DNA of 64,000 bases. Origin: Bacteroidales bacterium (GTDB taxonomy: Bacteria > Bacteroidota > Bacteroidia > Bacteroidales > Muribaculaceae). The stretch spans positions 1-64,000 of the forward strand of contig JAAVFI010000011.1 in NCBI GenBank assembly GCA_014800815.1. The letters run 5' to 3'. The position numbers were made by a program, and so were the translations under genes. The notes under the pieces are model-generated. The model saw nothing but the letters and a program-made list of their open reading frames with translations, was not told where the DNA came from and did not search any database. The first letter of the stretch is position 1; each line of letters begins with the position of its first letter. This document shows, piece after piece, positions 30,720-57,769 of this stretch.

Positions 30720-30883
30720 AAGTAAGTCTTGTAAATTAGTTTATATTACAATTTGAAGTAGTTATGAGCGAGATTCGTACTTGCGAAGAAGGACTTATGG
30801 GGCTCCATAACGACTGATAAGTAAGCACGAAGATTGCCATAACTACTCAAAGAGTGATATAAAATAATTTTCATGACTTACTT
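30720..30883. mobile_element. 164-bp long-palindromic intergenic element, copy A
   Basis: Begins AAGTAAGTCTTG and ends with the imperfect inverse CATGACTTACTT, with terminal inverted repeats of about 23 bp. The inverted symmetry continues inward, for example TTTGAAGTAG.TATGAG against the inverse of CATAACTACTCAAA, to a centre TTATGG-GGCT-CCATAA. It differs from copy B (51514-51677) at about 10 of 164 positions and has no coding capacity. Its right end contains the last Lys codon and TAA of the BY-kinase gene. It behaves like a MITE or a palindromic intergenic unit. Confidence 0.85.
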
Positions 30884-33250
30884 GTCGGTAGAAGTGTAAC
30901 CGTAACCGTAGGTGCGATTCTTCTTACCATAGTGTCCGTACTCGCCGTAGCGGCGGTACATGTAGGAGTTCGACACCATGTCCACACCGTTGAGCACGAG
31001 GTAGACAGAACTGAATTTACCGGCTTTGATGGCATCGTGGAGCACGCGCAGGCTCTTCTTGGAGGAGAAGTTGGCACGCGAAACGTAGAGCTGCAGGTCG
31101 GAGTGACGGAGAATGAGATAGGTATCGGAAATCACGCCTACGGGAGCGGAGTCGAGTATCACGTAGTCGAACTCTGCGCAGAGCGCTGCAATGAGGCGGT
31201 CCATATTCTCGGACATGAGGAGTTCGTTGGGGTTCGGCGGTACGGGGCCTGCGGGGAGTACGTAGAGATTATCGTTATACTTGCTCTTCACCACGAGCTT
31301 GCCGAGGTCCTTTTCCTGACCTGAAAGATATGTGGTGACGCCGCGGCGGTTGTCGAGGCCGAAACGGTGCGCGAGCATGGGACGGCGGAGGTCCATACCC
31401 ACTACCACCACTTTCTTGCCCATAAGGGCGTAGGTGAGTGCGAGGTTGGTGGCAACGAATGTCTTACCTTCACCCGACACTGTAGAGGTGAGGAGTATCA
31501 CCTTGCTGTCTACGCCGGAGCGTGTAAAGGAGATATTGTTGCGGAGCAGGCGGAAAAGCTCGGCTATAGGAGTGGATACGTTTTCGCCGACAACGACGGT
31601 ATCGTCGCCTTTCACATCGCCCTTGCAGATTTCACCGAGGATGGGCACATTGGTGAGGCGCGAGAGCTCTTCCTGATCGGCGAAGTTGGGGAACATCACT
31701 CGCTTGAAGAAGATGACTACGGCGGGAATGCCGACACCCAGGAGTAAAGCAAGAACTAATATGAACATTCTCGACGGCGACACGGGACCGGTGCCGGTGG
31801 GGTCGTCGATAAGACGGGCGGTATTTGTGGCAAGAGTCTTCTGCAGAGCTATTTCTTCACGGCGCTGAAGGAGGAAGGTGTAGATGTTTACCTTCACCTG
31901 CTGCTCGCGGAAGATTTCCTGCAGGCCTTTGTCAACTGTAGGAGTGGATGCGAGGCGGCCGATACTTACGCTTTCGAGCTGATTGATAGAGTTGCGCTTG
32001 GCGGCAAGGCTGCGCTTGGCGGCGTCAAGATTCTGGAGGATACGCACCTTGTCGCGGCTCAGTTCTTCCTGCATCGAGCGTACGAGCGGATTGTTGGGGG
32101 TCGAACCTTCGAGTGTGCGGTTGAGCTGGCTCACCTTGCGGTTGTAAGCCTCTATAATCTGCGTGATTGTAGGATTGTTGACGGCGGCCGGAAGGGTCTC
32201 GTATGTATCTGACATCGACACCCCGCGTTCTATCTCATTGAATACCAGCATCTCGGCATCTACCTCGGCGAGCTGCTTCTCGTAGTCGCTACGGCGGTTG
32301 AGGTTGATATTCGACTGAGTGTGCATATCGGTGATTCCGTGAGCCTGACGATAGGCCTGAAGTCGGTTTTCCACGTCTTTGAGTTCGTCGGAAATCATCA
32401 CGAGGCGGTCAAGGATGAAGGCCTCGGTCTGAACGGCCGAACGGTTTTTGTCTTCAATGATTTCGCGGTTGTAGAACTCGAGGAGCACATCTATGATATC
32501 GCTGCCGCGCTTTACAATCTGGTCGAGAAGACTTATGCGCATGATTTTCTCGGAGTTCTTGGCAAACTCGATGCTGAGAGCGCCCGAGAGGCGGGCGGCA
32601 GCCACACGCGGATTTACGATAGTAATGATCTGCACACCCTCAACTTCCGAAACAACGGGCGACGGAGAGAGAGTTACAGTACCGTGCGAAAGCTCTATAT
32701 CGAGGGGAAGCGACACGTCTTTAAGTGTCTTTTCCTCTTTTACTTCCTTGAATTTTGTCTTGACTTCGACATCGAATTTACCGTCGGCCTTGGGCTTTAC
32801 GGTAAGGTGGATAGGCTCGGTGAGTGCGCGGAGCGACATGGAGTCGAGCGACGCATTGATAGGATTGTTCTGATACAGAGGGATGTTGCGGAGTGTGCCC
32901 TTTGCATAGTAGGAGTATGAGAGATTGAGCGAATCTACAATCTTGATGAGGTTGTTGCGCGACTTGAGCACCTCGAGCTCGGTCTCGTCGATATAATTTT
33001 TGAGAGCCACCATAGGGTCGGTAGCATTCATGGAGAACGCATTCTCGCTCGTCTGGTCTTCGCTCAGGTACACCGAGGCATCAATTCGGTAGACGGGTAT
33101 CTTGGAGGCGCAGTAGAACCATGCACCGATGATGCACACCACAACACTTAATACAAACCACTTCCAGTTTGCAAGATAGGCAAGAAGCAGCCCGGTGGTG
33201 TCGAAACTTTCTTCGTCGCGGTCTTCAATATTGTTGATATCGGGATTCAT
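30878..33250 (-). CDS. Wzc-type polysaccharide co-polymerase / bacterial tyrosine kinase
   Basis: A 790-residue inner-membrane protein that would control chain length and export of a surface polysaccharide through reversible tyrosine phosphorylation. It has a Wzz-type N-terminal domain with a membrane helix (about 31-49), a long periplasmic coiled-coil region (about 270-440), and a second membrane helix (MFILVLALLLGVGIPAVVIFF). The BY-kinase domain follows: Walker A SGEGKT (Lys596), Walker A' VVGMDLRRPML and Walker B YVILDSAPVG. The tail is a tyrosine cluster (YMYRRYGEYGHYGKKNRTYGYGY), the usual autophosphorylation site. Its last codons AAG-TAA lie inside repeat copy A. The Wza-like gene is 13 bases upstream. 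No glycosyltransferase cluster is adjacent. Confidence 0.93.
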   Translation of the reverse strand: MNPDINNIEDRDEESFDTTGLLLAYLANWKWFVLSVVVCIIGAWFYCASKIPVYRIDASVYLSEDQTSENAFSMNATDPMVALKNYIDETELEVLKSRNNLIKIVDSLNLSYSYYAKGTLRNIPLYQNNPINASLDSMSLRALTEPIHLTVKPKADGKFDVEVKTKFKEVKEEKTLKDVSLPLDIELSHGTVTLSPSPVVSEVEGVQIITIVNPRVAAARLSGALSIEFAKNSEKIMRISLLDQIVKRGSDIIDVLLEFYNREIIEDKNRSAVQTEAFILDRLVMISDELKDVENRLQAYRQAHGITDMHTQSNINLNRRSDYEKQLAEVDAEMLVFNEIERGVSMSDTYETLPAAVNNPTITQIIEAYNRKVSQLNRTLEGSTPNNPLVRSMQEELSRDKVRILQNLDAAKRSLAAKRNSINQLESVSIGRLASTPTVDKGLQEIFREQQVKVNIYTFLLQRREEIALQKTLATNTARLIDDPTGTGPVSPSRMFILVLALLLGVGIPAVVIFFKRVMFPNFADQEELSRLTNVPILGEICKGDVKGDDTVVVGENVSTPIAELFRLLRNNISFTRSGVDSKVILLTSTVSGEGKTFVATNLALTYALMGKKVVVVGMDLRRPMLAHRFGLDNRRGVTTYLSGQEKDLGKLVVKSKYNDNLYVLPAGPVPPNPNELLMSENMDRLIAALCAEFDYVILDSAPVGVISDTYLILRHSDLQLYVSRANFSSKKSLRVLHDAIKAGKFSSVYLVLNGVDMVSNSYMYRRYGEYGHYGKKNRTYGYGYTSTDK

Positions 33251-33263
33251 GCGTCAGATAAGA

Positions 33264-34112
33264 TTACTTGGAAAGGTTTATAATACCGATGATGAGAGAG
33301 GCCAGCGACGACATACCGCCGACTACGGTAATCGTGGATGTTACGGCAGGATTGAGCGACCATGCGTTGGATCGGAGCGACTTATTGGGCTCGACGTAGA
33401 TAAAATCGTTCTGCTGCAGTACGTAGTAGGGGGAGAGAAGCAAGTCTTTATCATGAAGATTGAGACGATGCACCTCGCGGGTACCGTCGGCATTGGTGCG
33501 ATAGAGGAGGATGTTCTCACGGTCGCCCTTGATGTCGAGGTCGCCGGCCATAGAAATAGCCTCGAGGAAAGTCATGCGCTCGTTCTTCGACTGATACACA
33601 CCGGGTAGCTTCACGGCACCTGCCACTGTCACGCGGAAGTTCATCAGGCGGATATCAATCTGCGGACGCTCGGTGACGTACTTGGGATAGATAGCCTCGC
33701 ACAGTTCGTCGGCAACCTGCTGCTTGTGCAGGCCGGCCACTTTGACCTTTCCGACAATAGGGAAGTCGATGCAACCGTCGGCATTTACGAGATAGTACTC
33801 CGTAGACACTTCCATACCGCTGTTGCCATAGGTATTCAGTGTACGTGAGATGTTGATTATCTTGCCGTCGGCGTCGATATATTTACCCTTGTTGAAGGGA
33901 GCCATTGCCGCCATATTCGCGCCGGTAACTTCTATATTCAGAAGGTCGCCAACGGTTATTACAGGGTCGCCAACAGTAGGAACTGCGGAGAGCACCTCTG
34001 CGGGAATGGTTTCTGCTTCAACGAGATAAGGCACTTTTTTGGGTGCAGAACAGCTTGCCAGCAAAAATACGGCCACAGCTGTAAAAAGCATATTGCGATG
34101 TAAAACTTTCAT
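33264..34112 (-). CDS. Wza-like polysaccharide export lipoprotein
   Basis: A 282-residue outer-membrane polysaccharide export protein, partner of the BY-kinase 13 bases downstream. The lipoprotein signal ends in LLASC (Cys21). The export (Poly_export/SLBB) region shows VTVGDLLNIEVTGANMAAMAPFNKG, IVGKVKVAGLHKQQVADELCEAIYP and FRVTVAGAVKLPGVYQSKNERMTFLEAISMAGDLD. A C-terminal hydrophobic helix (TITVVGGMSSLASLIIGIINL) matches the outer-membrane pore helix of Bacteroidetes Wza proteins. A TATCTTTG box at 34178 gives a leader of about 60 bases. Confidence 0.92.
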   Translation of the reverse strand: MKVLHRNMLFTAVAVFLLASCSAPKKVPYLVEAETIPAEVLSAVPTVGDPVITVGDLLNIEVTGANMAAMAPFNKGKYIDADGKIINISRTLNTYGNSGMEVSTEYYLVNADGCIDFPIVGKVKVAGLHKQQVADELCEAIYPKYVTERPQIDIRLMNFRVTVAGAVKLPGVYQSKNERMTFLEAISMAGDLDIKGDRENILLYRTNADGTREVHRLNLHDKDLLLSPYYVLQQNDFIYVEPNKSLRSNAWSLNPAVTSTITVVGGMSSLASLIIGIINLSK

Positions 34113-34177
34113 TTTACAGATAGGAAGTAAACCTACAGTTTTTATTATTCAATTCAGCTAAAAAGTGTTAGCGTCGG

Positions 34178-34185
34178 CAAAGATA
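34178..34185 (-). promoter_or_regulatory. -7 box for the Wza-like / BY-kinase operon
   Basis: TATCTTTG on the minus strand, 66 bases before the ATG of the export lipoprotein gene. Confidence 0.55.
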
Positions 34186-34246
34186 CGCATTTTTTCCCTA
34201 TCTACCAATATTTGTCAGGCTTTATAGCGCAGTTGTGTTCGGCAAC

Positions 34247-36121
34247 TTATTTGCCCAACGATTGCATCTCTACCAGACGGCGATAGTAGCCTTTGGCCCC
34301 GGGGGCAAGAAGTTCGTCGTGAGTGCCGCTCTCCACTATTCGCCCTTCGTGCATCACACAGATGAGGTCGGCGCGACGTATGGTAGCGAGGCGGTGGGCT
34401 ATGACGAGGGTCGTACGCCCCTCCATGAGGCGGTCGAGAGCCTGCTGAACGAGGGCTTCGCTCTCGCTGTCGAGTGCCGACGTAGCCTCGTCGAGAATGA
34501 GGATGGCGGGATTTTTGAGCACGGCGCGGGCTATGGAGATGCGCTGACGCTGACCGCCCGACAGTCGGCATCCGCGGTCGCCGACTGAAGTATCGTAGCC
34601 GTTTTCCGTGGCCATAATGAACTCGTCGGCATTGGCTATGCGGGCGGCGGCACGCACCTGTTCGAGGGTAGCGCCCTCGACTCCGAATGCTATGTTGTTG
34701 AAAATAGTATCGTTGAAGAGTATCGCCTCCTGATTCACATTGCCCATGAGCGAGCGGAGGTCGTGCACGCCGAGTTCTCTCACATCGGTGCCGCCGACGC
34801 TTACCGAACCCTTGCGCACGTCGTAGAAGCGAGGGATGAGATCGGCCATGGTGGATTTACCGCTACCCGACTGACCTACAAGGGCTACCGTAGCTCCCGG
34901 ACGTATGTCGAGGCTCACATCGGAGAGCACGTCGGTAGTGCCGTCGTAGGAGAATGTAACGTCGTCGAAACGCACGCCTACAGGAGCACCCGTCGCGGGT
35001 ATGGCTTTAGGTTTCGCGGGGTCGGCGATAGGATTTTTCGCACCGAGAATCTTGTCCACGCGATCCATGGAAGCGAGGCCCTTCTGTATGGCGTAGCTTG
35101 CCTTGGAGAGGTCTTTGGCAGGATTGATGATGCTGTAGAAAATCACCATGTAGTAGATGAAGTCGGGGGCATTGAGGCTCGACTTGCCCGAAAGTATCAG
35201 GCTGCCGCCGAACCACAGGATAATGGCAATGGCGGTAGTGCCGAGGAATTCGCTCATAGGGTGCGCAAGCGACTGGCGGCGAGCCACTTTATTGGAGAGG
35301 TGGTAGAACTCCTGGTTCTCTCCGTGGAAGCGCGCGCACATCTTGTCTTCTGCATTGAAAGCCTTGATGATGCGGAGTCCGCCGAGAGTTTCTTCGATAG
35401 TGGACATGAGCACACCCCACTGGGTCTGGCCCTCGTAGGAGGTGCGCTTGAGGCGCTTGCCAACCTTACCCATGACGTATCCGGCCAGAGGGAGCAGGAT
35501 GAATACAAACACGGTGAGCTGCCACGAAATAGCAATCATCATACCGAGACACACGATAATCATCACCGGATTTTTAAACATCATATCGAGCGATGCCATA
35601 ATCGAGTTTTCGATTTCGGCCACGTCGCCGCTCATGCGGGCCATGACGTCGCCCTTGCGCTCGGCGGTGAAGAAGCCTATGGGCAGTACGGTGATTTTAT
35701 CGTACACATAGTTGCGGATATCGCGCACGATACCCGAGCGCATGGGGATGATGAAGTACGAACTCAGATATGCCGTGCCGGTCTTAAGAGCCGTTAGCAC
35801 TACGAGCGCTGCGGCAAGTATGCCGAGCGTGGCCGAGGCACCGCACTGCTCTATAAGTACCTGAGTATAATAGTAGAAGTTGTTGAACGCCACCTCCTTG
35901 AGCGACCCGTCGCTGAGGTGCATATACACGTAGTGACTCTCGCGGATTTTGAAGAGCATCTCGAGAATCGGTATAATGAGCGCGAAGGAGAAAAGCGTGA
36001 GAAATGCCGTGAGAAGATTAAAGAGCACATTGAGTGCCAGATACTTCTTATAGGGCGGCACGAAGCGTCGGAGAAGGCTTAAGAAACCGTTCATTAAATG
36101 TTTTAATTTATTTATAATCAA
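34247..36121 (-). CDS. MsbA-like ABC exporter (fused permease and ATPase)
   Basis: A 624-residue inner-membrane half-transporter working as a homodimer, probably flipping a lipid or lipid-linked substrate such as lipid A. Six membrane helices lie in roughly the first 330 residues (PPYKKYLALNVLFNLLTAFLTLFSFALIIPILEMLF is the first hairpin). The ATPase domain has Walker A GQSGSGKST, Q-loop NVNQEAILFND, signature LSGGQRQRISIARA, Walker B ILILDEATSALD and the switch IAHRLATI. MsbA is the best-known member of this shape, but lipid versus drug substrate cannot be set from sequence. Its ATG overlaps the end of the rsmF-like gene by 4 bases, implying coupling. Confidence 0.9.
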   Translation of the reverse strand: MIINKLKHLMNGFLSLLRRFVPPYKKYLALNVLFNLLTAFLTLFSFALIIPILEMLFKIRESHYVYMHLSDGSLKEVAFNNFYYYTQVLIEQCGASATLGILAAALVVLTALKTGTAYLSSYFIIPMRSGIVRDIRNYVYDKITVLPIGFFTAERKGDVMARMSGDVAEIENSIMASLDMMFKNPVMIIVCLGMMIAISWQLTVFVFILLPLAGYVMGKVGKRLKRTSYEGQTQWGVLMSTIEETLGGLRIIKAFNAEDKMCARFHGENQEFYHLSNKVARRQSLAHPMSEFLGTTAIAIILWFGGSLILSGKSSLNAPDFIYYMVIFYSIINPAKDLSKASYAIQKGLASMDRVDKILGAKNPIADPAKPKAIPATGAPVGVRFDDVTFSYDGTTDVLSDVSLDIRPGATVALVGQSGSGKSTMADLIPRFYDVRKGSVSVGGTDVRELGVHDLRSLMGNVNQEAILFNDTIFNNIAFGVEGATLEQVRAAARIANADEFIMATENGYDTSVGDRGCRLSGGQRQRISIARAVLKNPAILILDEATSALDSESEALVQQALDRLMEGRTTLVIAHRLATIRRADLICVMHEGRIVESGTHDELLAPGAKGYYRRLVEMQSLGK

Positions 36122-37476
36122 CGTCCCATACGCAGACGCATGTGGTCCGGTATGAGATTATTGGCACGTCGGCCTATATTTTTGGCAAAACCGAGAGGTC
36201 GGGCGCCATAGCATGGAGTTACAAAGCCCTTGGGAAGACCGTCGGGGAGGTCGCTAAGACTCTCGCCGCGGAGGAAACGCAGAGCAGCGTCGAGGTCGAG
36301 ATCAAACGCCGCGAAAGAGTCGGGACGCAAGTCGGCGCTCAACGCCAGTTCGTGCAGCGGCGCGAGGTCGCGTCCTTTAGGCTCGGCCACGGGCAATCCG
36401 CCGCGCAGCAGCGTCACCGTCGATGCGAGTTTGTCGATGAAAGCGGCATGAATACGTGGACGAATCTCGATGCGTCCGCCCGCCTCGACTTCTATAAATC
36501 TGTCGGCATCAGCGATATGACTCTTCACAAACTCGCCGCACGCCGCAAATTTCTTTTCCTTATATTGTGCATGACTGCCGTTGCCGGGTTTGCGCACGGC
36601 AGCAATAAATATACCCTCGCCTCGGATATGTCCCGGCGTAAATCTATAGCAGTGATGCGGAGTGTCGATACCCTTGAGCACCCCTTCGAAGCAGTCGAGG
36701 CCGAGGTCGACGCTCTCGGCGTCGAATTCATCGGCAAGGAAAGCTATATTCTCCTCATTCTCAGAGCGGTTGAATGTGCATGTACTGTAGATAAGCACCC
36801 CTCCCGGCCTGAGCGACTGCCAGAGGTCGGAAAGTATGGCACGCTGAGTAGCGGCACACGAGGCCACAAGCCCCTCCGACCACTGCGCTACCGCCTCAGG
36901 CTCCTTACGCATCATGCCCTCGCCGGAGCACGGCGCATCAACGGCCACGATATCGAAAGCCTCCTCCAGACGGCCGAAGCGCGACGCATCGCCGCGGACT
37001 ACGGCAACATTCGAGGCTCCGTATTTGGCAATATTTTCATAGAGGATATTGGCACGGTGTCGGTCAAGCTCGTTGGCGACAACAAAATCGTCGCTCCTCA
37101 GAGCCTCAAGCGCCGAGATAGTCTTACCTCCCGGCGCAGCACAAGCGTCGAGGTAGCGCAACGGACTCTCATCGAAATATTTTCCGACAATCCGTCTTAC
37201 AGCCTCAGTATAAATCATCGACGACGCCTCCTGCACATAGTAGAGTCCCTGATGCCATGCGGGATCGGCGGCAAAGAGAGGACGTTCGGCAAGATACCGC
37301 CCCTGTGCGCACCAGGGCACAACATCAGCATCGGCAGCAGGCGCACACCCCTTGAGGGCATTGTCGCGCACGCTCACCTGCGGAGGAGCCGTGAGTGCGG
37401 CAAGCAAAGGCCCGGCAAAATCATCGCCGAGGCTCCGCAACATCTCTATAAACTTGGGAGGCAATTCTGTTTTCAC
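36118..37476 (-). CDS. RsmF/NSUN-family rRNA (cytosine-C5) methyltransferase
   Basis: About 452 residues if started at the GTG at 37476 (VKTELPPKFIEMLRSLG). An upstream ATG at 37503 would lie before the likely transcription start, because the -7 box TATCTTTG is at 37481-37488. The protein would methylate a cytosine of rRNA using SAM. The SAM-binding motif is LDACAAPGGKT. The two catalytic cysteines appear in DAPCSGEGMMRKEP (motif IV) and YSTCTFNRSENEENI (motif VI). The C-terminal part (VTPCYGARPLGFAKN, LIPDHMRLRMG) resembles the PUA/RNA-binding end of RsmF-type proteins. The exact target site is not known. Confidence 0.9.
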   Translation of the reverse strand: MKTELPPKFIEMLRSLGDDFAGPLLAALTAPPQVSVRDNALKGCAPAADADVVPWCAQGRYLAERPLFAADPAWHQGLYYVQEASSMIYTEAVRRIVGKYFDESPLRYLDACAAPGGKTISALEALRSDDFVVANELDRHRANILYENIAKYGASNVAVVRGDASRFGRLEEAFDIVAVDAPCSGEGMMRKEPEAVAQWSEGLVASCAATQRAILSDLWQSLRPGGVLIYSTCTFNRSENEENIAFLADEFDAESVDLGLDCFEGVLKGIDTPHHCYRFTPGHIRGEGIFIAAVRKPGNGSHAQYKEKKFAACGEFVKSHIADADRFIEVEAGGRIEIRPRIHAAFIDKLASTVTLLRGGLPVAEPKGRDLAPLHELALSADLRPDSFAAFDLDLDAALRFLRGESLSDLPDGLPKGFVTPCYGARPLGFAKNIGRRANNLIPDHMRLRMGR

Positions 37477-37480
37477 ACCG

Positions 37481-37488
37481 CAAAGATA
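37481..37488 (-). promoter_or_regulatory. -7 box deciding the RsmF-like start
   Basis: TATCTTTG on the minus strand, only 4 bases upstream of the GTG start. It argues for leaderless translation from GTG or an internal ATG, not from the upstream ATG at 37503. Confidence 0.5.
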
Positions 37489-37538
37489 GCGAAAATCTCC
37501 CACATCCCCCCGCTTTTGGCAAAAGCGACCAATATAAT

Positions 37539-37556
37539 CTAATTTTCATGACTTAC
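37539..37556. repeat. Solo end of the 164-bp intergenic element
   Basis: CTAATTTTCATGACTTAC, an 18-base exact match to the right terminal repeat of copy B (51514-51677), without the rest of the element. Confidence 0.65.
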
Positions 37557-37616
37557 ATAGTATCATTATGCGCATCATCTCCCTGCCGCAATTATTTCAT
37601 CAGTCAGCAGATGAAT

Positions 37617-37676
37617 GGTATTTAATACCAATTTAAGTGCTGTATTTGAAAAAAAAATCCAAATACAGCACTTAAA
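37617..37676. repeat. Two palindromes in the 330-bp gap before the toxin-antitoxin genes
   Basis: GGTATT-T-AATACC (37617-37629) is a perfect 6-bp palindrome. It is followed by a perfect 17-bp stem (37632-37648 with 37660-37676) around an A-rich 11-base loop. No gene is seen between 37489 and 37833. The stem could act as a terminator on either strand. Confidence 0.7.
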
Positions 37677-37732
37677 ATTTAAATAATTCTCATTTTATGC
37701 CTGAAAATTTCCGACTCTACCTCCCCGCACCG

Positions 37733-37811
37733 ACTATAATCAACTTACAACTTTATTATAGTTAAACATAGTTAATGCGTGTACCAAAATGGATACCATT
37801 CGTTATATTTG
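37733..37811 (+). promoter_or_regulatory. Promoter and candidate operator of the toxin-antitoxin pair
   Basis: A TATATTTG -7 box at 37804-37811 lies 22 bases before the antitoxin ATG. Upstream are an inverted repeat ACTATAAT (37733-37740) / ATTATAGT (37755-37762) and a direct repeat ATAGTTAA (37758 and 37768), plausible sites for antitoxin autoregulation. Confidence 0.45.
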
Positions 37812-37833
37812 CAGATATAATAAATTGTAGACT

Positions 37834-38067
37834 ATGGAAATTGTTAGCGCACGAGATTTCAGAACAAATCAGTCAAAGATTCTGGCAAAGGCTTTAAAAG
37901 GAGAGTCGGTATTACTTTCCTCTCGTATGGGCATGTTCAAGATTACACCAATTACCGAAGAAGACTCCATGACAAATCGCATATGCGAAGGTCTTAAAGA
38001 AGTTCAACAGATCGAAGCAGGAAACATACATGCCAAATCAGCAAAAGATTTCCTGAATGAGCTTTGA
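37834..38067 (+). CDS. Type II antitoxin, Phd/YefM-like
   Basis: A 77-residue protein. The first half (MEIVSARDFRTNQSKILAKALKGESVLLSSRMGMFKITPI) matches the Phd/YefM fold that binds the operator. The second half (NRICEGLKEVQQIEAGNIHAKSAKDFLNEL) is the acidic helical part that masks the toxin. The stop overlaps the toxin start by 11 bases, the usual coupled layout. Lower GC content than the surroundings suggests mobility. Confidence 0.85.
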   Translation: MEIVSARDFRTNQSKILAKALKGESVLLSSRMGMFKITPITEEDSMTNRICEGLKEVQQIEAGNIHAKSAKDFLNEL

Positions 38068-38401
38068 TATAAGAACCACTCCAAGATTTGAGCGTTCGGC
38101 CAAAGCTCTTTTCAAGAGATATCGATCACTGAAAACAGATATCGGTGAACTGATAGCCGCATTGGAAAACAACCCATTCCAGGGAGATGAACTCACTCCC
38201 GGCATAAGGAAGATACGCATGGCTATTACTTCCAAAGGTCGTGGGAAGTCCGGTGGCGCAAGAGTAATTACCTATACAATAGTAGTTTCTGAAAATGAGG
38301 GGCGAGTTTACCTTATAGATATATATGACAAATCAGACTACTCTACAGTCGAACTATCCACAATAATTAAAGTAGTCGCTGACATTGAACCTGCAAAGTA
38401 A
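38057..38401 (+). CDS. RelE/ParE-superfamily toxin
   Basis: A 114-residue toxin, probably a ribosome-dependent mRNA nuclease. FDIRTTPRFERSAKALFKRYRSLKTDIGELIAALENNPFQGDELTPGIRKIRMAI is the typical helix-helix-strand start. GKSGGARVITYTIVVSENEGRVYLIDIYDKSDYSTV contains the central strands with basic residues (GARVITY, YDKSDYST) used for RNA contact or catalysis in YafQ/HigB-like members. It pairs with the overlapping antitoxin. It is convergent with the efflux operon (4 bases between stops). Gyrase-directed ParE activity cannot be excluded. Confidence 0.85.
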   Translation: MSFDIRTTPRFERSAKALFKRYRSLKTDIGELIAALENNPFQGDELTPGIRKIRMAITSKGRGKSGGARVITYTIVVSENEGRVYLIDIYDKSDYSTVELSTIIKVVADIEPAK

Positions 38402-38405
38402 GCCT

Positions 38406-42904: not shown

Positions 42905-42919
42905 CAGGTCTGCCTCCTT

Positions 42920-44107: not shown

Positions 44108-44255
44108 TATATTGACTGAATGCACTATCGCCTTGGCGACATTAAACAATGTGAGGAATTAAATTTCGTGCACAAATGTACAAAATTATAACGAAGTAGA
44201 TAAAAGAAAAGTTCGATATACTCAACAAAATAAGCCAAATCTCGCTTTTATGTGT

Positions 44256-44263
44256 TATCTTTG
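44256..44263 (+). promoter_or_regulatory. -7 box for the dGTPase gene
   Basis: TATCTTTG, 27 bases before the ATG at 44291. It excludes the further upstream ATG at 44252 as a usable start. Confidence 0.55.
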
Positions 44264-44290
44264 CAGAATCCTCTAATTAACTTAATTCCT

Positions 44291-45637
44291 ATGGCCCGAA
44301 TGAACTGGGAAAGGCTGATAAACGACAAACGATTCGGCCTCGAAGACTACCACGATCCTAAAAAGAATCTTACCCGCACCGACTTCCGGCGCGACTACGA
44401 CCGTCTCGTGTTTTCATCGCCCTTCCGACGCCTCCAGAACAAGACCCAGGTCTTCCCTCTGCCGGGCAGTATCTTCGTGCACAACCGCCTCACACACTCC
44501 ATGGAGGTATCTTGCGTAGGTAAATCCATGGCCGACAACATTGCAGTAGCGCTCAAACGACGATACACTGCCCAAGGCGCTCCCGCCGAGCACTTCGACC
44601 ACCTTGGCGATATCGTAGCCGCGGCCTGCCTCGCACACGACCTCGGCAACCCGCCTTTCGGACACTCCGGCGAAAAAGCCATAGGCACATATTTCAGCGA
44701 GGGTGAGGGCCTGAAACTCAAGCCGATGTTCACGCGCGAGCAGTGGGCCGACCTCATCAACTTCGAGGGCAACGCCAACGCATTCCGTCTGCTCACTCAC
44801 CAGTTCAACGGACGCCGCCGCGGAGGATTCGCCATGACATACTCGATGCTCGCCTCCATAGTGAAGTACCCATTCGAGTCGGTGATATCGCCCAAAGGCA
44901 AATTCGGTTTCTTCACCACCGAGAAAGACGACTTCAGGCGCGTGGCCGACGAACTCGGCATGCTGCGCCTATCGGCCGACGGCGAGCCTCTGCGCTACGC
45001 CCGACACCCGCTCGTCTACATCGTGGAGGCTGCCGACGACATCTGCTACGAAGTGATGGATCTCGAAGACGCGCACAAACTCAAGATTCTATCCACCGAC
45101 GAAGTTACCTCGCTCCTGCTCGGATTCTTCGATAAAGACCGCCGCGAGCACATGTTCGACGTAATGAAGAGCGTCGACGATCCCAACGAGAAGATTGCCT
45201 ACCTGCGCTCCTGCGTCGTAGGGGCACTCGTAGAACAATGTGCGCAGACCTTTATAGACAACGAAGACGCCATACTCGAAGGACGCTTCGAAGGCTCGCT
45301 GCTCAGCCACATCCGCCCGCTCGAAGGCGATGCCTACAAGGCTTGCTGCAAGGTGTCTTACGAAAAGATATACCGCGCAGGCGAGGTTGTCGACATCGAA
45401 CTCGCCGGTAACCGCATCATCACCTTCCTCCTCGAGCGCCTCGTGAGCGCGGTCCTCGAGCCCGAACTACACTACTCTCACCTCCTCCTCGCAAAATTCC
45501 CGCAACAATACGACACACAGTCGCCCACACAGTTCGGCAAAATACAGGCTGTGCTCGACCACGTTTCGGCCATGACCGACGTATACGCCCTCGACCTCTA
45601 CCGCAAGCTCAACGGCATGTCGCTCCCTGCTGTATAA
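44291..45637 (+). CDS. dgt: Deoxyguanosinetriphosphate triphosphohydrolase (HD domain)
   Basis: About 448 residues from MARMNWERL (44291); MNWERL (44300) is also possible. Hydrolyses dGTP, or dNTPs more widely, to the nucleoside and triphosphate, adjusting nucleotide pools. The HD metal site is visible as NRLTHSMEVS and AACLAHDLGNPPFGHSGEKA (His-Asp). The N-terminal FRRDYDRLVFSSPFRRLQNKTQVFPL is the family signature for nucleotide binding. The C-terminal half contains DDICYEVMDLEDAH. It is first in a plus-strand run with the TPM protein 15 bases later. True substrate preference cannot be told from sequence. Confidence 0.93.
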   Translation: MARMNWERLINDKRFGLEDYHDPKKNLTRTDFRRDYDRLVFSSPFRRLQNKTQVFPLPGSIFVHNRLTHSMEVSCVGKSMADNIAVALKRRYTAQGAPAEHFDHLGDIVAAACLAHDLGNPPFGHSGEKAIGTYFSEGEGLKLKPMFTREQWADLINFEGNANAFRLLTHQFNGRRRGGFAMTYSMLASIVKYPFESVISPKGKFGFFTTEKDDFRRVADELGMLRLSADGEPLRYARHPLVYIVEAADDICYEVMDLEDAHKLKILSTDEVTSLLLGFFDKDRREHMFDVMKSVDDPNEKIAYLRSCVVGALVEQCAQTFIDNEDAILEGRFEGSLLSHIRPLEGDAYKACCKVSYEKIYRAGEVVDIELAGNRIITFLLERLVSAVLEPELHYSHLLLAKFPQQYDTQSPTQFGKIQAVLDHVSAMTDVYALDLYRKLNGMSLPAV

Positions 45638-45652
45638 CTCTCAAATAATATT

Positions 45653-46927
45653 ATGCGACGTTCACTCTTCCTTATATTCCTGCTCACACTCTCCCTCCCT
45701 GTGCTTGCCCGCACATGGAAAGTATCCGATATACCCAACGTACACCTCGCGGACAGCACACAGTTTGTCTCCGACCCCGACGAAATTCTCTCACCCGACG
45801 CAAAAGCTGCCATAAACAGCTCAATGCGCTCCATACGCAAGAGCACCTCCGCCGAAGCTGTAGTCGTAATTGTAGATGACATCGACGGTGGCGACATCGA
45901 CGGCTTCGCCACAGAACTCTTCACCGACTGGGGGCTCGGAAAGAAAGACGTAGACAACGGCCTCCTCATACTCGTGGCCAAAGACCTCCGCCGTGCCGCT
46001 ATCCGCCCCGGATACGGCCTTGAAGGAGTGCTCCCCGATATTACCTGCGCCGCTATCCTGCGCGAAGATATGTTTCCCCGCTTCCGCGAGGGCGACTACG
46101 GCGCCGGACTTGCTGCCGCCTCGCAGACAATATCCACCATACTCACCGACCCCGACGCGGCAGCAGAGATACGCTCGCGCCTCGAAGACCCCGACTACAA
46201 CGGAGGCACCGGCGAAGACGACCTCGACTTCTTCCAGGTCTACCTCATATTCATGGCCGTACTCTCTGTCGCACTCGTCATCATTCTCCTCCTCACCCTT
46301 GCAGGCACACGCGGCAAGAGTCGTCACGACCGCTATCTTGCCCTCGCCAAACTCAAATCGCCCTACCTCGCCCTCTCGTTCCTCGGCCTCGGCATGCCCC
46401 TGTTAGCATCCCTGCCCCTCATTATCATCCTCTATCATCTGCGCAACAGCCCCCACAAGTGCCCCAACTGCGGCACTTCCATGAAGAAGATAGATGAGGT
46501 GCACGACAACGAATATCTCAATCCCACACAGGACCTCGAGGAGCGCCTCGGCTCAGTAGACTACGACGTGTGGCTCTGCCCCTCGTGCGGCGAGACCGAC
46601 ATCGAGCAATACGTAACACCCGCGTCAGGCTACTCTCAGTGCCCCTACTGCCACGCCTACGCCTCGCGCCTCGTGCGCCGACGCATACTGCGCCAGCCCA
46701 CCACAGCGCTCAAAGGCTTCGGCGTAAACGAATACACATGCCTCAACTGCCACAAAGACCACGACGACCACTTCGAGCTCCCGAAACTCGACGTAGCTCC
46801 CGCCGTAATAGCCGGAAGCATACTCGGCAGCAGCCGTAGAGGAGGTGGATTCGGTGGAGGAGGATTCGGTGGCGGCAGTTTCGGCGGCGGTATGACCGGC
46901 GGCGGTGGTGCTTCGGGCGGCTGGTAA
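45653..46927 (+). CDS. TPM-domain membrane protein with zinc-ribbon insert and Gly-rich tail
   Basis: A 424-residue envelope protein. A signal peptide (RRSLFLIFLLTLSLPVLA) is followed by a TPM domain (about 35-165, SDPDEILSPDAKAAINSSMRSI ... VDNGLLILVAKDLRRAAIRPGYGLEGVLPD), which in relatives is periplasmic. Two membrane helices (about 197-217 and 244-264) follow. A cysteine-rich region has four CxxC-type knuckles (KCPNCGTS, LCPSCGET, QCPYCHAY, TCLNCHKDHDDH). It ends in a glycine-rich tail GGGFGGGGFGGGSFGGGMTGGGG. The YgcG-type TPM plus Gly-tail layout is common. The multiple zinc-ribbon-like knuckles are an extra feature. Function unknown. Confidence 0.8.
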   Translation: MRRSLFLIFLLTLSLPVLARTWKVSDIPNVHLADSTQFVSDPDEILSPDAKAAINSSMRSIRKSTSAEAVVVIVDDIDGGDIDGFATELFTDWGLGKKDVDNGLLILVAKDLRRAAIRPGYGLEGVLPDITCAAILREDMFPRFREGDYGAGLAAASQTISTILTDPDAAAEIRSRLEDPDYNGGTGEDDLDFFQVYLIFMAVLSVALVIILLLTLAGTRGKSRHDRYLALAKLKSPYLALSFLGLGMPLLASLPLIIILYHLRNSPHKCPNCGTSMKKIDEVHDNEYLNPTQDLEERLGSVDYDVWLCPSCGETDIEQYVTPASGYSQCPYCHAYASRLVRRRILRQPTTALKGFGVNEYTCLNCHKDHDDHFELPKLDVAPAVIAGSILGSSRRGGGFGGGGFGGGSFGGGMTGGGGASGGW

Positions 46928-46950
46928 TTGCCCGCTTCGAAAAATTTTCT

Positions 46951-46958
46951 TACTTTTG
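46951..46958 (+). promoter_or_regulatory. -7 box for rsmA
   Basis: TACTTTTG, 26 bases before the rsmA ATG. Confidence 0.45.
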
Positions 46959-46984
46959 CACCCTAAAACCGAAAAAGCAGAGCT

Positions 46985-47782
46985 ATGGCAGGAGTAAAAC
47001 CAAAGAAGGCCCTCGGCCAGCATTTTCTTACCGACCTAAATGTGGCCGACAGGATAGCATCAACTCTCGATGACTACCCCGACTCTCCCGTGCTCGAAGT
47101 AGGACCAGGCATGGGCGTTCTCACTCGTTTCCTCCTCGAAAAGCATCCCGCCGATAAAGTATCTGTCGCCGAGATAGATACCGAAAGTATCGACTGGCTC
47201 CGCACTCATCTGCCCGAACCTCAGCCGCGAATCATCGAAGGCGACTTCCTTCAGATGGATTTGGCCGAACTCTATCCCGGCGATGAGAAATTCTGCGTTC
47301 TCGGCAACTATCCCTACAACATTTCATCTCAGATCTTCTTCAAAGTCCTCGACTATAAAGACCGCGTAGAATGCTGCTCAGGCATGCTCCAGCGCGAAGT
47401 GGCCGAACGTCTTGCCGCCGCCCCCGGCACTAAAGCCCGCGGAATACTCAGCGTACTCCTCCAGGCATGGTACAGCGTCGACTACCTCTTCACCGTTTCG
47501 GAGCACGTATTCAATCCGCCGCCAAAAGTCAAGTCGGGAGTAATAAAAATGGTGCGCAACAGCGTGACAGACCTCGGATGCGACGAGGCCCTCTTCAAGA
47601 CCGTTGTAAAGACCACCTTCGGCCAGCGCCGAAAGACCCTGCGAAACAGTGTACGCTCACTACTTCCCGCAGGCTCCGTTCTCCCCGAAGACGACCCCAT
47701 GGGCGGTAAAAGACCCGAACAACTCTCGGTAGATGAATTTATTGAACTGACCAACAAGGTAGCAGCACTCCGCAAGGCATGA
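46985..47782 (+). CDS. rsmA: 16S rRNA (adenine-N6,N6)-dimethyltransferase RsmA (KsgA)
   Basis: Dimethylates the two adjacent adenines in the 3'-terminal helix of 16S rRNA using SAM, a late step of 30S assembly. The 265 residues are family-standard. Motifs: KKALGQHFLTDLNVADRIAS at the N-terminus, SAM-binding LEVGPGMGVLT, acidic EID after beta-2, and the catalytic GNYPYNISSQIFFK. The C-terminal helical domain contains PPPKVKSGVIKM and FGQRRKTLRNS. Its stop overlaps the mgtE start by 4 bases, so the two are coupled. Confidence 0.97.
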   Translation: MAGVKPKKALGQHFLTDLNVADRIASTLDDYPDSPVLEVGPGMGVLTRFLLEKHPADKVSVAEIDTESIDWLRTHLPEPQPRIIEGDFLQMDLAELYPGDEKFCVLGNYPYNISSQIFFKVLDYKDRVECCSGMLQREVAERLAAAPGTKARGILSVLLQAWYSVDYLFTVSEHVFNPPPKVKSGVIKMVRNSVTDLGCDEALFKTVVKTTFGQRRKTLRNSVRSLLPAGSVLPEDDPMGGKRPEQLSVDEFIELTNKVAALRKA

Positions 47783-49137
47783 AAGAGTACACCGACGAAT
47801 ATCTCGAACACATTCAGCAGATAATCGCTGCCAACGACACCGAAAAGGCACGCGAAGAACTTGCCTCTCTACACCCGGCCGACATCGCCGAGCTATATCA
47901 GAAACTCGACCTTGAGGAAGCCGAATATCTTTTCAGCCTTCTCGACGAAGAAACCGCCGCCGACGTACTCATGGAGCTTGACGAAGACGACCGTCTCAAG
48001 CTCATCAGCGACATGCCCGCCGAGGAAATCGCCAAGCAGATCGACCACCTCGACACCGACGACGCCGTCGACCTCATACAGCAACTCGACGAGGAAGAGC
48101 GCGACGAAATCCTCTCGCACATCGACGACGTGGAGCAGGCAGGCGACATTATTGACCTCCTGAAATACGACGAAGACACCGCCGGCGGCCTCATGGGCAA
48201 GGAGATGATAGTCGTAAACGAAAACTGGTCGATGCCCGAGTGCATACGCCAGATGCGCGTGCAGGCCGAGGAAATGGACGAAATATACTACGTCTACGTC
48301 GTCGACAACGACAATAAGCTCCGGGGCACCCTCCCCCTCAAGATGATGCTCACGCATCCTTCGGTCTCGAAGATCAAGCACGTAATGGAGACCGACCCCG
48401 TAAGCGTCAAGGTAGACACCCCTATTGACGAAGTTGCTCTCGACTTCGAGAAATACGACCTTGTGGCAATGCCCGTAGTAGACTCCATAGGCCGTCTGCT
48501 CGGACAGATTACCGTCGACGACGTCATGGACCAGGTCCGCGAAGCCAGCGAACGCGACTATCAGCTCGCCGCAGGTATCTCCTCCGACGTCGATACCGAC
48601 GACTCCATCCTCGCCCAGACCAAAGCCCGCATACCATGGCTCCTCATAGGCATCGCATCAGGCTTGCTCGCATCAGTCATCCTCAGCACATTCGAGGTAC
48701 AGCTTCAGGCAGTCACCACACTCGCACTCTTCATTCCTATTATCGGCGGTACGGGAGGTAACGTCGGCGTACAGGCATCGGCAATCGTCGTTCAGGGTCT
48801 CGCCAACGGCTCCCTCGACATCAAGCACTTTGCCACACAGCTCGGCAAAGAACTGCTCATAGGCCTGCTTAACGCCACCGTAATAAGCTCCGTAGTATTC
48901 ATCTACAACCTCATTACGCTTCCCGGAGAGTTTGCCGTGACCATGTCGGTAGCCACATCACTGTTCATAGTGGTGATTATAGCCACCCTGCTCGGCACCG
49001 TGGTACCGCTGACTCTTGAGAAACTGAAAATCAACCCTGCACTCGCCACAGGCCCCTTCATTCAGATATCGAACGACATCCTCGGCCTCATCATCTACGT
49101 GCATATTTCAACAATGTTCCTGCGCCTGTTCAGTTAG
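47779..49137 (+). CDS. mgtE: Magnesium transporter MgtE
   Basis: A 452-residue inner-membrane Mg2+ channel gated by cytoplasmic Mg2+. The N domain (about 1-130) is built of MgtE repeats (LHPADIAELYQKLDLEEAEYLFSLLDEETAADVLMELDEDDR). Two CBS domains (about 135-260) follow, with a plug helix (SDVDTDDSILAQTKARIPWL). Five membrane helices end the protein (IASGLLASVILSTFEV, LALFIPIIGGTGGNVGVQAS with the pore GGTGGNVG..AS, and three more). Its stop overlaps the convergent acyltransferase gene by 4 bases. Confidence 0.96.
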   Translation: MKEYTDEYLEHIQQIIAANDTEKAREELASLHPADIAELYQKLDLEEAEYLFSLLDEETAADVLMELDEDDRLKLISDMPAEEIAKQIDHLDTDDAVDLIQQLDEEERDEILSHIDDVEQAGDIIDLLKYDEDTAGGLMGKEMIVVNENWSMPECIRQMRVQAEEMDEIYYVYVVDNDNKLRGTLPLKMMLTHPSVSKIKHVMETDPVSVKVDTPIDEVALDFEKYDLVAMPVVDSIGRLLGQITVDDVMDQVREASERDYQLAAGISSDVDTDDSILAQTKARIPWLLIGIASGLLASVILSTFEVQLQAVTTLALFIPIIGGTGGNVGVQASAIVVQGLANGSLDIKHFATQLGKELLIGLLNATVISSVVFIYNLITLPGEFAVTMSVATSLFIVVIIATLLGTVVPLTLEKLKINPALATGPFIQISNDILGLIIYVHISTMFLRLFS

Positions 49138-50252
49138 GAGATTGCCTTGCGTCGGATCGACGAAGTTCCCACCACCCACTGCCCTCCGGGCAAATAGGAG
49201 ATAAGCAGGCTCGACACCCAGCAGCATACAAATGTACTCACTGCTATAGCGGGTATAGCTATACCCGTAGCAAGCTCAAGATTGGTCTTGAACACCGACA
49301 CCCAGAGCCCGAGCCAGAATATGTGCATGAGATACATACCGTAGCTAAGTTCGGAAAGTTGAAGTATGATACGAGGAGTCCTCTCTTTCTTTATACAGGT
49401 AAAGAGAAGAAATGCTCCCGTTGTAAGCATAAGGCAGTTGAATGTGCAGAACGACCACCCGATTTCGAGTTCGGGAGTATCTATTATCTTGCCGGGTATG
49501 GCCTGTATATAGAACGACAGTATAGTCCATACAGCTCCTACCACCGTAAGAAGCGAACCGACGGCAAGACGCTTCTTTGTATCCCACGTCAGATGCACGC
49601 GTATATAGTGCGCGAGCACAAGATAGCCGAGATATCCCGAAAAATACCATAGTGTGTGGAATTCATTCCAGAAACACTGTCCCCACACCTCTCCCGCAAA
49701 ACGGTTGAGATACGGTATAAGGGTAGAAATAACGAACAACACGATAAAGAACCGCTCCTCCTTGGCCGATACCTTGGCAAGCCACGGAGAAATAATAGGG
49801 ATAAACAGATACAGGCCTATCAGCGGATAGATAAACCACAGATGCCCCGCAAGAGTCGGGAAATTCAGCAGTATGCGCGAAAGGTCCTGAGCGGAAGTAG
49901 ACGGGTCTATCTGACCCCAGAACAGAGGCACCGTGCTGTACAGCACCATAAATATGAAGAACGGCGGCAGAATTCTCAGTGCTCTGCGGCGGTAGAATTC
50001 ACGGGCACTCTGGCCTTCCTTCATAGGTACAAGAAGAAATGCCGAAACAATCATAAACAGAGGCACAGCCATACGCGAGAAACCGTCGTAGACCGACACC
50101 CAGAAGCGGTCTGTATCATTCAGAAGCAGCGATTGTGGACCGGCCATATCGGTAGCACCGGGTGCGCCATAGTAATTCTCGGAAGCATGTACAAGCATCA
50201 CAAGGAAGCATGCAAATACCCTTATGTAATCCAGAAAAACGATTCTCTTCAT
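49134..50252 (-). CDS. Acyltransferase-3 family membrane protein
   Basis: A 372-residue integral membrane protein with about ten helices. Family members transfer acetyl, succinyl or other acyl groups to surface sugars, lipids or peptidoglycan. The hallmarks are the N-terminal RIVFLDYIRVFACFLVMLVHASEN, with the Arg and His (MLVHAS) of the active site, then a basic loop YRRRALRILPPFFIFMVLYS. The C-terminal helices contain ELSYGMYLMHIFWLGLWV. Neighbours do not suggest a substrate. It is convergent with mgtE (4-base overlap) and appears to be transcribed alone. Confidence 0.9.
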   Translation of the reverse strand: MKRIVFLDYIRVFACFLVMLVHASENYYGAPGATDMAGPQSLLLNDTDRFWVSVYDGFSRMAVPLFMIVSAFLLVPMKEGQSAREFYRRRALRILPPFFIFMVLYSTVPLFWGQIDPSTSAQDLSRILLNFPTLAGHLWFIYPLIGLYLFIPIISPWLAKVSAKEERFFIVLFVISTLIPYLNRFAGEVWGQCFWNEFHTLWYFSGYLGYLVLAHYIRVHLTWDTKKRLAVGSLLTVVGAVWTILSFYIQAIPGKIIDTPELEIGWSFCTFNCLMLTTGAFLLFTCIKKERTPRIILQLSELSYGMYLMHIFWLGLWVSVFKTNLELATGIAIPAIAVSTFVCCWVSSLLISYLPGGQWVVGTSSIRRKAIS

Positions 50253-50316
50253 ATCCTTTGCTGTGAAACGTGATAATTTTGCAAATTTAGTAAAATTGCT
50301 GAATACCGCAAAATTA

Positions 50317-51042
50317 CTATACCGTAGCTCCTAAGGCCAGAAAAGACACCGAAGCGGGTTTGGCACCGCTCCATGCCAGGGCAAACATTGCCTCCGACAT
50401 CGACGCTCCCGTAGTGATCACATCGTCTACGATAGCCACATCAAGCCCCTCGAGTTCCTCTACATTGCGGCACGCATAGCATCCGCGGATATTCACCGAG
50501 CGCTCCCTGAAGCCCAGGCGCGTCTGCGTACCGTGGCCGCGCAAGGCCACAAGATTATCCCCCACCGGAATATCGAGCACATCACCAATACCTGCCGCTA
50601 TCTCACAGCTCTGATTATACCCGCGACGCATGCGTTTCAGCACATACATAGGCATGGGCAGAAGCACATCGAGCCCCTTCACAGCCTGCGAATCGCTGCT
50701 CATAAGCAGATCGCGCGCAAAGATAGCCCCCATGCGTCGGAGCATGGCAGGACGGTCGTCGTACTTACCCTTACGGATTATCGACGCATATTCATCTGAC
50801 GGATTATAGCTGTACCACGCTCTGACAATGCCGACAGGAAACGGTGCGTTGGTGAGCGCTGCCGGATTTTCAAACAATTCAGGCCCTGTGAGACGGTGTC
50901 GCGGAAGCGAAGCCATACACCCGAAGCACACATCCTCCTCCTTTTCCGTAAGCAGATTGCCGCATACGGCACAAGTGCGTGGAAGCAGGCACGTATCGCA
51001 CCACAACCTCGCCTCGCGCTTTATAATATCGACAAGACCCAT
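50317..51042 (-). CDS. ComF-family phosphoribosyltransferase-like protein
   Basis: A 241-residue protein of the ComF/GntX family, linked in other bacteria to DNA uptake or DNA metabolism. The N-terminal zinc finger appears as CDTCLLPRTCAVCG ... DVCFGC. The C-terminal phosphoribosyltransferase fold has the PRPP loop VAIVDDVITTGASM and upstream VLLPMPMYVLKRMRRGYNQSCEIAAGI. The start overlaps the stop of the upstream small gene by one base (TGATG arrangement), so translation is coupled. It is the last gene of the leftward helicase-meaB-DUF1573-x-comF run. Confidence 0.93.
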   Translation of the reverse strand: MGLVDIIKREARLWCDTCLLPRTCAVCGNLLTEKEEDVCFGCMASLPRHRLTGPELFENPAALTNAPFPVGIVRAWYSYNPSDEYASIIRKGKYDDRPAMLRRMGAIFARDLLMSSDSQAVKGLDVLLPMPMYVLKRMRRGYNQSCEIAAGIGDVLDIPVGDNLVALRGHGTQTRLGFRERSVNIRGCYACRNVEELEGLDVAIVDDVITTGASMSEAMFALAWSGAKPASVSFLALGATV

Positions 51043-51512
51043 CAGAGCAAGAGTCTTTCGATGCGGTTGCCCGGCTTGATGTTGAGGCTGAACGCAGCAC
51101 TGCGTCCCGTAGCCTCGCTGCGGTAGTTGAAGTGATACCGCTCCTGCCCGAAACAGTCGAGGGTGGCATAGGCCGCAGTAGCCTCACTGCCGCTGCTTCC
51201 CTTTCCGGGCACAAGACGTTCCTCCACAGTCACGTCAAATCCTATGACAGTCACGGCCAGACTGCACGCTCCCGTAGCCATATCCACTCCCGTAAGTCCG
51301 AAGCGGTGCAGCTCGAGTTCGCCCTTATCATTGACCACCGCAACAATTCCGGGGTCCGACGGCGCGGCATCGTCGCGGAGCGTACAGGCGAAAAGAAACG
51401 TGCGCGCAGCACCGCGGTTCGAAGGCATCGACGCGGCGGCAATCACCGCTGCTGCAATGAAAGCCGTTATTATATAGAATTCTACCGTGGTGAAGAAACT
51501 CGCAAGTATCAT
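51042..51512 (-). CDS. Small membrane-anchored protein of unknown function
   Basis: 156 residues with a single N-terminal hydrophobic segment (FYIITAFIAAAVIAAASM, about 12-29) and a beta-rich, probably periplasmic remainder. Phrases such as PGIVAVVNDKGELELHRFGL and ERYHFNYRSEATGRSAAFSLNIKPG are visible. I recognise no domain. The ATG lies immediately next to intergenic element copy B (one base between), so the element forms the whole leader on the operon mRNA. It is coupled to comF by a one-base overlap. Confidence 0.65.
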   Translation of the reverse strand: MILASFFTTVEFYIITAFIAAAVIAAASMPSNRGAARTFLFACTLRDDAAPSDPGIVAVVNDKGELELHRFGLTGVDMATGACSLAVTVIGFDVTVEERLVPGKGSSGSEATAAYATLDCFGQERYHFNYRSEATGRSAAFSLNIKPGNRIERLLL

Positions 51513-51513
51513 T

Positions 51514-51677
51514 AAGTAAGTCTTGTAAATTAGTTTCTATTACAATTTGAAGTAGGTATGAGCAAGATTCGTACTTGCGAAGAAGAAGTTATGGGGTTCC
51601 ATAATGACTGATGAGCAAGCACGAAGATTGCCATAACTACTCAAAGAGTGATATAAACTAATTTTCATGACTTACTT
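51514..51677. mobile_element. 164-bp long-palindromic intergenic element, copy B
   Basis: Second full copy (copy A at 30720-30883; about 10 differences in 164). Terminal repeats are AAGTAAGTCTTGTAAATTAG and the inverse of CTAATTTTCATGACTTACTT. The inner symmetry converges on TTATGG-GGTT-CCATAA near 51592-51607. It lies between DUF1573 and the 156-residue gene within one operon. A further TTAGTAAGTCTTACTTACTT fragment links its right end to the AAG-TAA of the DUF1573 gene. Confidence 0.85.
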
Positions 51678-51689
51678 AGTAAGTCTTAC

Positions 51690-52094: not shown

Positions 52095-52095
52095 C

Positions 52096-52128
52096 AGTAA
52101 GTCCTGTAAATTAGTTATGTGTTTACTT
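52096..52128. repeat. 33-bp miniature form of the intergenic element
   Basis: AGTAAGTCCTGTAAATTAGTT (20 of 21 bases like the left end of the 164-bp element), five bases, then TTTACTT. It fills the whole gap between the meaB stop (AAG-TAA, inside its right end) and the DUF1573 ATG. Confidence 0.65.
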
Positions 52129-57713: not shown

Positions 57714-57755
57714 GCGCCTCCCCTTGTCTTTCGACAGCGGGAGGCGTTACTTTTA
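57714..57755 (+). terminator. Terminator after pckA
   Basis: 8-bp perfect stem CGCCTCCC (57715-57722) with GGGAGGCG (57739-57746), partly extended inward (TTGTC/GACAG), followed by TTACTTTTAT. Confidence 0.8.
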
Positions 57756-57769
57756 TAGAAAGTTTTCTA

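Follow-up and report, generated by a model that had tools for sequence, protein, structure and literature searches.

A palindromic MITE of the Muribaculaceae shares a conserved hairpin with a clade of Bacteroidales IS5-family insertion sequences

The window analysed here, a stretch of 64,000 nucleotides (positions 1 to 64,000 of contig JAAVFI010000011.1, assembly GCA_014800815.1) from a Bacteroidales bacterium of the Muribaculaceae, carries two copies, A and B, of a 164-bp palindromic element (Table 1). Copy A is placed between convergent genes; copy B sits between two leftward genes, a DUF1573 gene at 51690-52094 and an open reading frame (ORF) at 51042-51512 whose ATG abuts the element. The element is a miniature inverted-repeat transposable element (MITE): it is short, occurs in about 30 copies, lacks coding capacity and has terminal inverted repeats. 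The superfamily to which it belongs shares a hairpin with a clade of Bacteroidales IS5-family insertion sequences, and the middle of the MITE is its conserved part, outlasting changes of the terminal repeats. We infer that the hairpin acts through one of its strands in folded form, most likely as RNA.

An earlier note on this DNA had described an intergenic unit forming one long imperfect palindrome around TTATGG-N4-CCATAA, in two copies of equal length that differ at about 10 positions. Both copies are indeed 164 bp long and differ at 10 of 164 positions (94% identity over 166 nt). The description as intergenic needs correction for copy A, whose terminal repeat includes the stop codon of a leftward ORF. 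This copy has terminal arms of 37 nt that are 84% complementary, and the inverted symmetry runs on, past small internal loops, up to TTATGG-N4-CCATAA. Its predicted fold reaches -69 kcal/mol, against a mean of -28.7 (standard deviation 3.4) for dinucleotide shuffles (z = -11.8; none of 200 shuffles as good); to this extent the palindrome stands, broken by internal loops that are themselves conserved. The longest open stretch in either copy is 43 amino acids (aa), in agreement with the absence of coding capacity that the note had reported.

The window's own genome (2.77 Mb, 79 contigs) was searched at the DNA level with a 168-position query, which returned 25 copies spanning 162-168 query positions at 88-100% identity, two of them ending at a contig end. 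The partial copies are one that covers 146 positions, a pair of 117-bp pieces at contig ends and an 80-bp piece, and a covariance model adds two further copies, again at contig ends; pieces at contig ends may be halves of one copy. The 20-bp end is far more frequent than the full copies, with 96 occurrences at up to three mismatches against 3 for the reversed pattern. Many of the surplus ends belong to short end-to-end forms, about 22-48 bp long, and others are solo ends, both of which we take for scars of deletions through the palindrome. The 33-bp miniature and the solo end picked out in the earlier note are real examples (52095-52130 and 37539-37558). Adjoining copy B, at 51678-51697, lies a further GTAAGTCTTACTTACTT stretch, possibly an older scar of the same MITE family. 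About 55 bp from the solo end, at 37614-37694, there is a second palindrome, with 35-nt arms that are 77% complementary and an A-rich loop, which is possibly another repeat or a terminator.

Table 1. Positions of the MITE copies, their parts and their remnants in the 64,000-nt window
Feature	Position	Strand	Basis or remark
Copy A of the MITE, 164 bp	30720..30883	+ (strand folding best)	Covariance model match 30752-30853 +
Copy A, left terminal inverted repeat	30720..30756	+	Arm comparison
Copy A, right terminal inverted repeat	30847..30883	-	Holds the stop codon of leftward ORF 30878-33250
Copy A, core: GA/GA loops flanking the TTATGG-N4-CCATAA stem	30785..30817	+	
Copy B of the MITE, 164 bp	51514..51677	+	Model matches 51546-51647 + and 51547-51646 +
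Copy B, core: GA/GA loops flanking the TTATGG-N4-CCATAA stem	51579..51611	+	
Short end-to-end remnant (33-bp miniature of the earlier note)	52095..52130	+	
Solo end, remnant	37530..37558	-	

DNA matches, often 30-50 bp long, are present in 15 of the 49 genomes of the genus when its own is included (14 of the 48 others), and the middle of the element is common to species even where ends and arms differ. Beyond the approximately 165-bp elements with one hairpin there is a second size class of about 365 bp with two inverted hairpins, which differ from each other in the apical stem and have the same loops. The hairpin common to both classes is about 100 nt long. Around its apical stem lie a GA/GA internal loop, two base pairs and a second GA/GA loop, and 12 of 37 divergent hairpins also have a full third one; the constancy of the two inner loops is in part built in, because they were required by the scan or by the choice of rows. 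In an alignment of 32 hairpins with less than 75% arm identity (33 were chosen and one was left out), 24 of the 28 consensus pairs show at least one double change, and 88.6% of cells pair, against 40-45% when one side is slid by 1-3 columns and 60.4% after shuffling; the covariation score is 0.741 against 0.241 shuffled. The 11-bp stem below the loops, which the scan did not require, pairs in 77% of cases when in register; the figure falls to 41-51% when the register is shifted and to 53% when partners are swapped. A second covariance model, built from 23 hairpins with the AAGTAAG- and AAGTAAC-type families left out, matched both window copies (54.5 and 51.4 bits, E about 1e-11) and nothing else in the 64 kb; the hairpin of the window family is therefore homologous to that of the other families. 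The hairpin has very probably been selected as one folded strand.

An exact pattern for the middle was found in at least 107 stretches in named genomes, and among the 80 matches listed 79 are labelled Muribaculaceae, Muribaculum, Paramuribaculum, Barnesiella, Porphyromonadaceae or Bacteroidales and one Lachnoclostridium. Two matches to the middle pattern lie in viral contigs. One viral-contig record with the hairpin and a Paramuribaculum intestinale contig with the hairpin (our loci L193 and L086) are both 21834 bp long, and this record is probably the Paramuribaculum contig itself, taken as viral. The first covariance model, at E 1e-4, matched in 95 of 149 Muribaculaceae genomes, in 23 of 30 genera; at E 0.001, in an even sample of the order, it matched in 5 of 149 genomes (the window's own, one of the same family and three of other families). 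These counts are lower bounds, since in both searches at most 27 candidates per genome were scored, under strict filters. The earlier note had not recognised the family, and Rfam explains neither copy: there was no match in the window at the curated threshold, and a search of six related loci at E up to 10 gave three sub-threshold matches, all unrelated, so the match to a known RNA family that the earlier note had named as a refutation did not appear. A hammerhead-like motif, CTGATGAG, was set aside, since other families lack it. A literature search over titles and abstract openings, mostly of non-subscription papers, yielded no description of the element or its hairpin.

The link to insertion sequences came from a relative, locus L201, in which two inverted hairpins and terminal repeats enclose a 53-aa frame corresponding to the end of an IS5-type transposase. 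Searches with this peptide and then with a longer one gave matches in 28 of 149 and then 74 of 397 genomes. They include six full-length IS5-family elements of 1112-1283 bp, each with an inward-facing hairpin inside each end, and in five of the six the element is flanked on both sides by identical TNA triplets (TTA three times, TAA and TGA). Such flanks are like those of the IS1031 group of IS5. Element L337 encodes an intact 251-aa transposase (NCBIfam NF033580 at 177 bits, cut-off 110; PF01609; PF13340), and the other five have shorter or interrupted frames. A tree of 30 transposase stretches places the hairpin-bearing elements together in a single clade with 15 members (support 100/99); a motif scan is positive for 11 of the 15 and the covariance model for 13, L329 being counted as the same element as L227. 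The other clade, also of 15, has model matches at three loci, of which that at L358 lies outside the element's repeats and those at L242 and L198, placed relative to the transposase and not to element ends, lie well outside it, so that none was judged to lie inside an element of the sister clade. Where the ends of other-clade elements were found, the elements are about 0.9 kb long. A related group of this size (L347, L348, L350 and L355), with ends like AGAGGGTGTTTCATAAC, has no core hairpin inside by the motif scan and is a natural control for hairpin tests. Across the PF01609 transposases of seven genomes (24 matches), the core hairpin was present at two loci, L201 (the deletion derivative described above) and L217. 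Among MITEs with IS5-type ends (a left end was found in 92 of 122 rows, and 36 distinct elements had both ends), 30 of 36 have identical 3-bp flanks, against 20.1 expected if the two sides were independent. The suggestion in the earlier note that the unit might be a non-autonomous transposon is supported by some 30 copies with terminal inverted repeats, by DNA matches in relatives and by a hairpin held in common with full-length IS5-family elements.

The two strands of the hairpin are not equivalent. The + strand folds better in both window copies (-67.4 against -55.2 and -70.3 against -62.6 kcal/mol), and one strand folds better in all 33 divergent hairpins examined, 29 of which keep the preference once all are given an identical apical loop. 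Among 71 cases from seven apical stem types outside the pattern scan, the closing pair is G-U in 41, G-C in 26 and A-C in none. Over the whole arms of 34 representatives, a set that includes one off-register duplicate, G-U pairs outnumber A-C by 121 to 63, and by element the preference is 21 to 8 with 5 ties. The strand that reads inward at each end of the six full-length elements is the better-folding one. For single-hairpin copies between co-directional genes, this strand is antisense to the genes in 41 cases and sense in 17 (p 0.002), or 31 to 15 (p 0.026) without the copies that abut a stop codon; the same count, made under a looser rule, places 11 copies between convergent and 19 between divergent genes, and its distances to gene starts are unreliable because open-ended frames were allowed. 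A stricter count gave 32 antisense to 12 sense, with 30 hairpins dropped for lack of a closing repeat, and the first count gave 9 to 6 in the own genome, 16 to 5 for other single-hairpin copies and 7 to 4 for double-hairpin elements; the three counts overlap and are not independent. The earlier note had also considered a control element acting at the mRNA level, on the grounds that copy B lies within a leftward operon. As worded this finds no support, for the best-folding strand of copy B is antisense to its operon and the single-hairpin copies of the whole sample lean the same way, though action of the hairpin on transcripts is still the role that we favour.

The strand asymmetry, the closing pairs, the inward reading and the antisense bias together suggest that the folded strand, when transcribed, has an effect unwelcome in host operons. 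In the descent that we propose, the starting point is an IS5 element in which each terminal repeat is followed on its inner side by a hairpin of some 100 nt with tandem GA/GA internal loops, read inward. Loss of the transposase would have left the double-hairpin elements of about 365 bp, and loss of one hairpin as well the elements of about 165 bp that form one long palindrome, such as the window copies. A transcript entering from a flanking host gene would fold the hairpin and be stopped, cut or not translated, and the element and its transposase would thereby be shielded from outside transcription. MITEs would keep the hairpin because they consist of the ends. As judged from sequence, such an RNA shield against transcription entering the element is the simplest putative job for the hairpin, to which we give somewhat less than an even chance. 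That the element is an IS5-related MITE we hold with high confidence; that this identity and a folded-strand function hold jointly is probable.

Several observations weigh against this reading. The outermost approximately 15 bp of the window family's ends differ from IS5-type ends, and the flanks of the own-genome copies are mostly T...A, in which a TA duplication and part of the repeat are indistinguishable. A transposase with matching AAGTAAGTC ends, which the earlier note had proposed to look for, was not found among the matches listed, and in the own genome nothing matches the transposase of the hairpin clade at E 1e-10. Among the loci collected for the end search, inverted pairs of the same end 450-4000 bp apart occurred twice, with other end types and ordinary genes between them; the genus-wide end pattern gave no long pair among the matches listed; 20 own-genome stretches around solo or paired short ends, read for ends only and with no gene search, held short remnants; and the 24 PF01609 matches were examined for the core hairpin, not for AAGTAAGTC ends. 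Among the full-length elements, L336 has the flanks TAA and TTA, which are not a duplication. The label given by the motif scan needs five changes on the tree, not one, and two of the 15 rows of the hairpin clade have no model match, one of them (L221) being cut by a contig end. In the 11-bp stem a comparable G-U excess also appears when the registers are slid, so the comparison of G-U with A-C does not discriminate there. The orientation bias is weak in the own genome (9 to 6 and 4 to 3, antisense to sense), the orientation sample was drawn from hit lists and is not random, and the gene calls are longest ORFs; an insertion preference could also produce such a bias. The ends differ, the flanks are mostly T...A and no AAGTAAGTC-ended transposase was found among the matches listed, yet the hairpin is homologous, and the window family is therefore filed as an IS5-related MITE.

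The strongest rival, which we consider unlikely though a serious competitor, is that the hairpin acts as folded single-stranded DNA, recognised on the exposed strand by a transposase or a host factor. Subterminal hairpins of IS200/IS605 elements and attC sites of integrons are recognised as folded single strands. Strand asymmetry and wobble pairs would favour one strand of DNA as well, the hairpins are inverted at the two ends in the manner of binding sites, and MITEs without genes retain them. The transposase here, however, is an IS5-family DDE protein, and we know of no use of single strands by IS5-family DDE transposases; the sister IS5 clade does without a model match judged to lie inside the element, and single-stranded action does not predict a bias against the sense of host transcripts. 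A much less probable account makes the hairpin a functionless by-product of long inverted ends and deletions, with its arms kept alike by recombination. The short end-to-end remnants do show a palindrome prone to deletion, but under this account it is hard to see why the internal loops remain mismatched and alike while the stems change by double substitutions, why one strand is always more stable, and why paired hairpins within an element have unlike stem sequences and the same loops.

The remaining alternatives concern the identity of the element. A Tc1/IS630-type MITE, consistent with the T...A flanks of the own copies if these reflect TA, is quite improbable: PF13358 (DDE_3) had no match in any of seven genomes, the own genome included (other IS630-type models were not tried), and the hairpin is that of IS5 elements. 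Copies do lie near genes (the closer gene is at a median of 14 bp, n=72) and fold strongly, as would a cis-regulatory RNA element of the host that had been multiplied for the use of particular genes. To this view we give very little credence: the neighbour genes change from copy to copy, the ends are inverted, there are flanking duplications and deletion remnants, and the folded strand is more often antisense than sense to its neighbours. Least probable of all is a REPIN-like element moved by a Y1 transposase (RAYT, REP-associated tyrosine transposase), for although the element is palindromic, intergenic and present in many copies and the own genome has one Y1 gene (G000:C42:312-656, REP-associated or IS200-type), the 2.2 kb around that gene hold neither MITE ends nor a TTATGG-N4-CCATAA stem, so that the gene is not flanked by the repeat, genome G031 carries a family of about 165 bp of the AAGTAAG type with no Y1_Tnp match, and the terminal repeats and TNA flanks seen in relatives are in keeping with a DDE element.

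The hairpin-bearing elements, as an IS5-related group, are close to the IS5 insertion sequences of NF033580, of which the L337 transposase is a member, and their TNA flanks are like those of the IS1031 group; they differ in having a conserved hairpin inside each end and a length of 1.1-1.3 kb, against about 0.9 kb for hairpin-less relatives. IS5-related MITEs such as BrickBuilt of Porphyromonas gingivalis are likewise MITEs of Bacteroidales; their terminal repeats resemble IS5-family ones, and long stem-loops are predicted in them (PMC4596501). As described in the available part of that report, however, they are tied to ISPg elements by their ends and their stem-loops are made by direct repeats, and this part makes no mention of a hairpin that they would have in common with the ends of the insertion sequences (PMC4596501). 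The Correia elements of Neisseria are MITEs with hairpins that act in transcripts, RNase III cutting at the repeats; their sequence is unrelated, and the effect was measured there, whereas here it is inferred (PMC10969869). In ISPpu9 the 5' region of the transposase mRNA is structured and regulates expression, but it is a different element, regulated by small RNAs (PMC8450116); the hairpin described here occurs at each end of the insertion sequences and also in MITEs. REPINs, which with REP-associated transposases are the subject of PMC2817692, are likewise abundant intergenic palindromes, in contrast to the terminal-repeat elements linked to a DDE transposase described here.

Two further features of the window stand apart from the MITE. 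Three 198-nt direct repeats at 12385-14150 are 74-87% identical to a reference copy. Three similar stretches, at 55959-55992, 57748-57781 and 58126-58159, each end in TACCTTTGCAT and look like Bacteroidetes promoters.

Descriptions of MITEs usually centre on the ends and treat the middle as a leftover; here the middle is conserved, in gene-less and in full-length elements, and the hairpin goes with one clade of IS5 transposases. It also accounts for a repeat that is very common in gut Bacteroidales (95 of 149 sampled genomes of the Muribaculaceae) and lies outside the coverage of Rfam. The sequence comparisons raise the tentative prospect, which we rate a little short of even, of a new structured-RNA class with repeated tandem G-A/G-A loops, integral to both ends of a DDE (IS5) clade and spread through the Bacteroidales, that would silence read-in transcripts from either side or serve a transposition step as a folded strand. 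The elements thus offer a concrete case for asking whether an insertion sequence insulates itself from host transcription by a structured strand at both ends.

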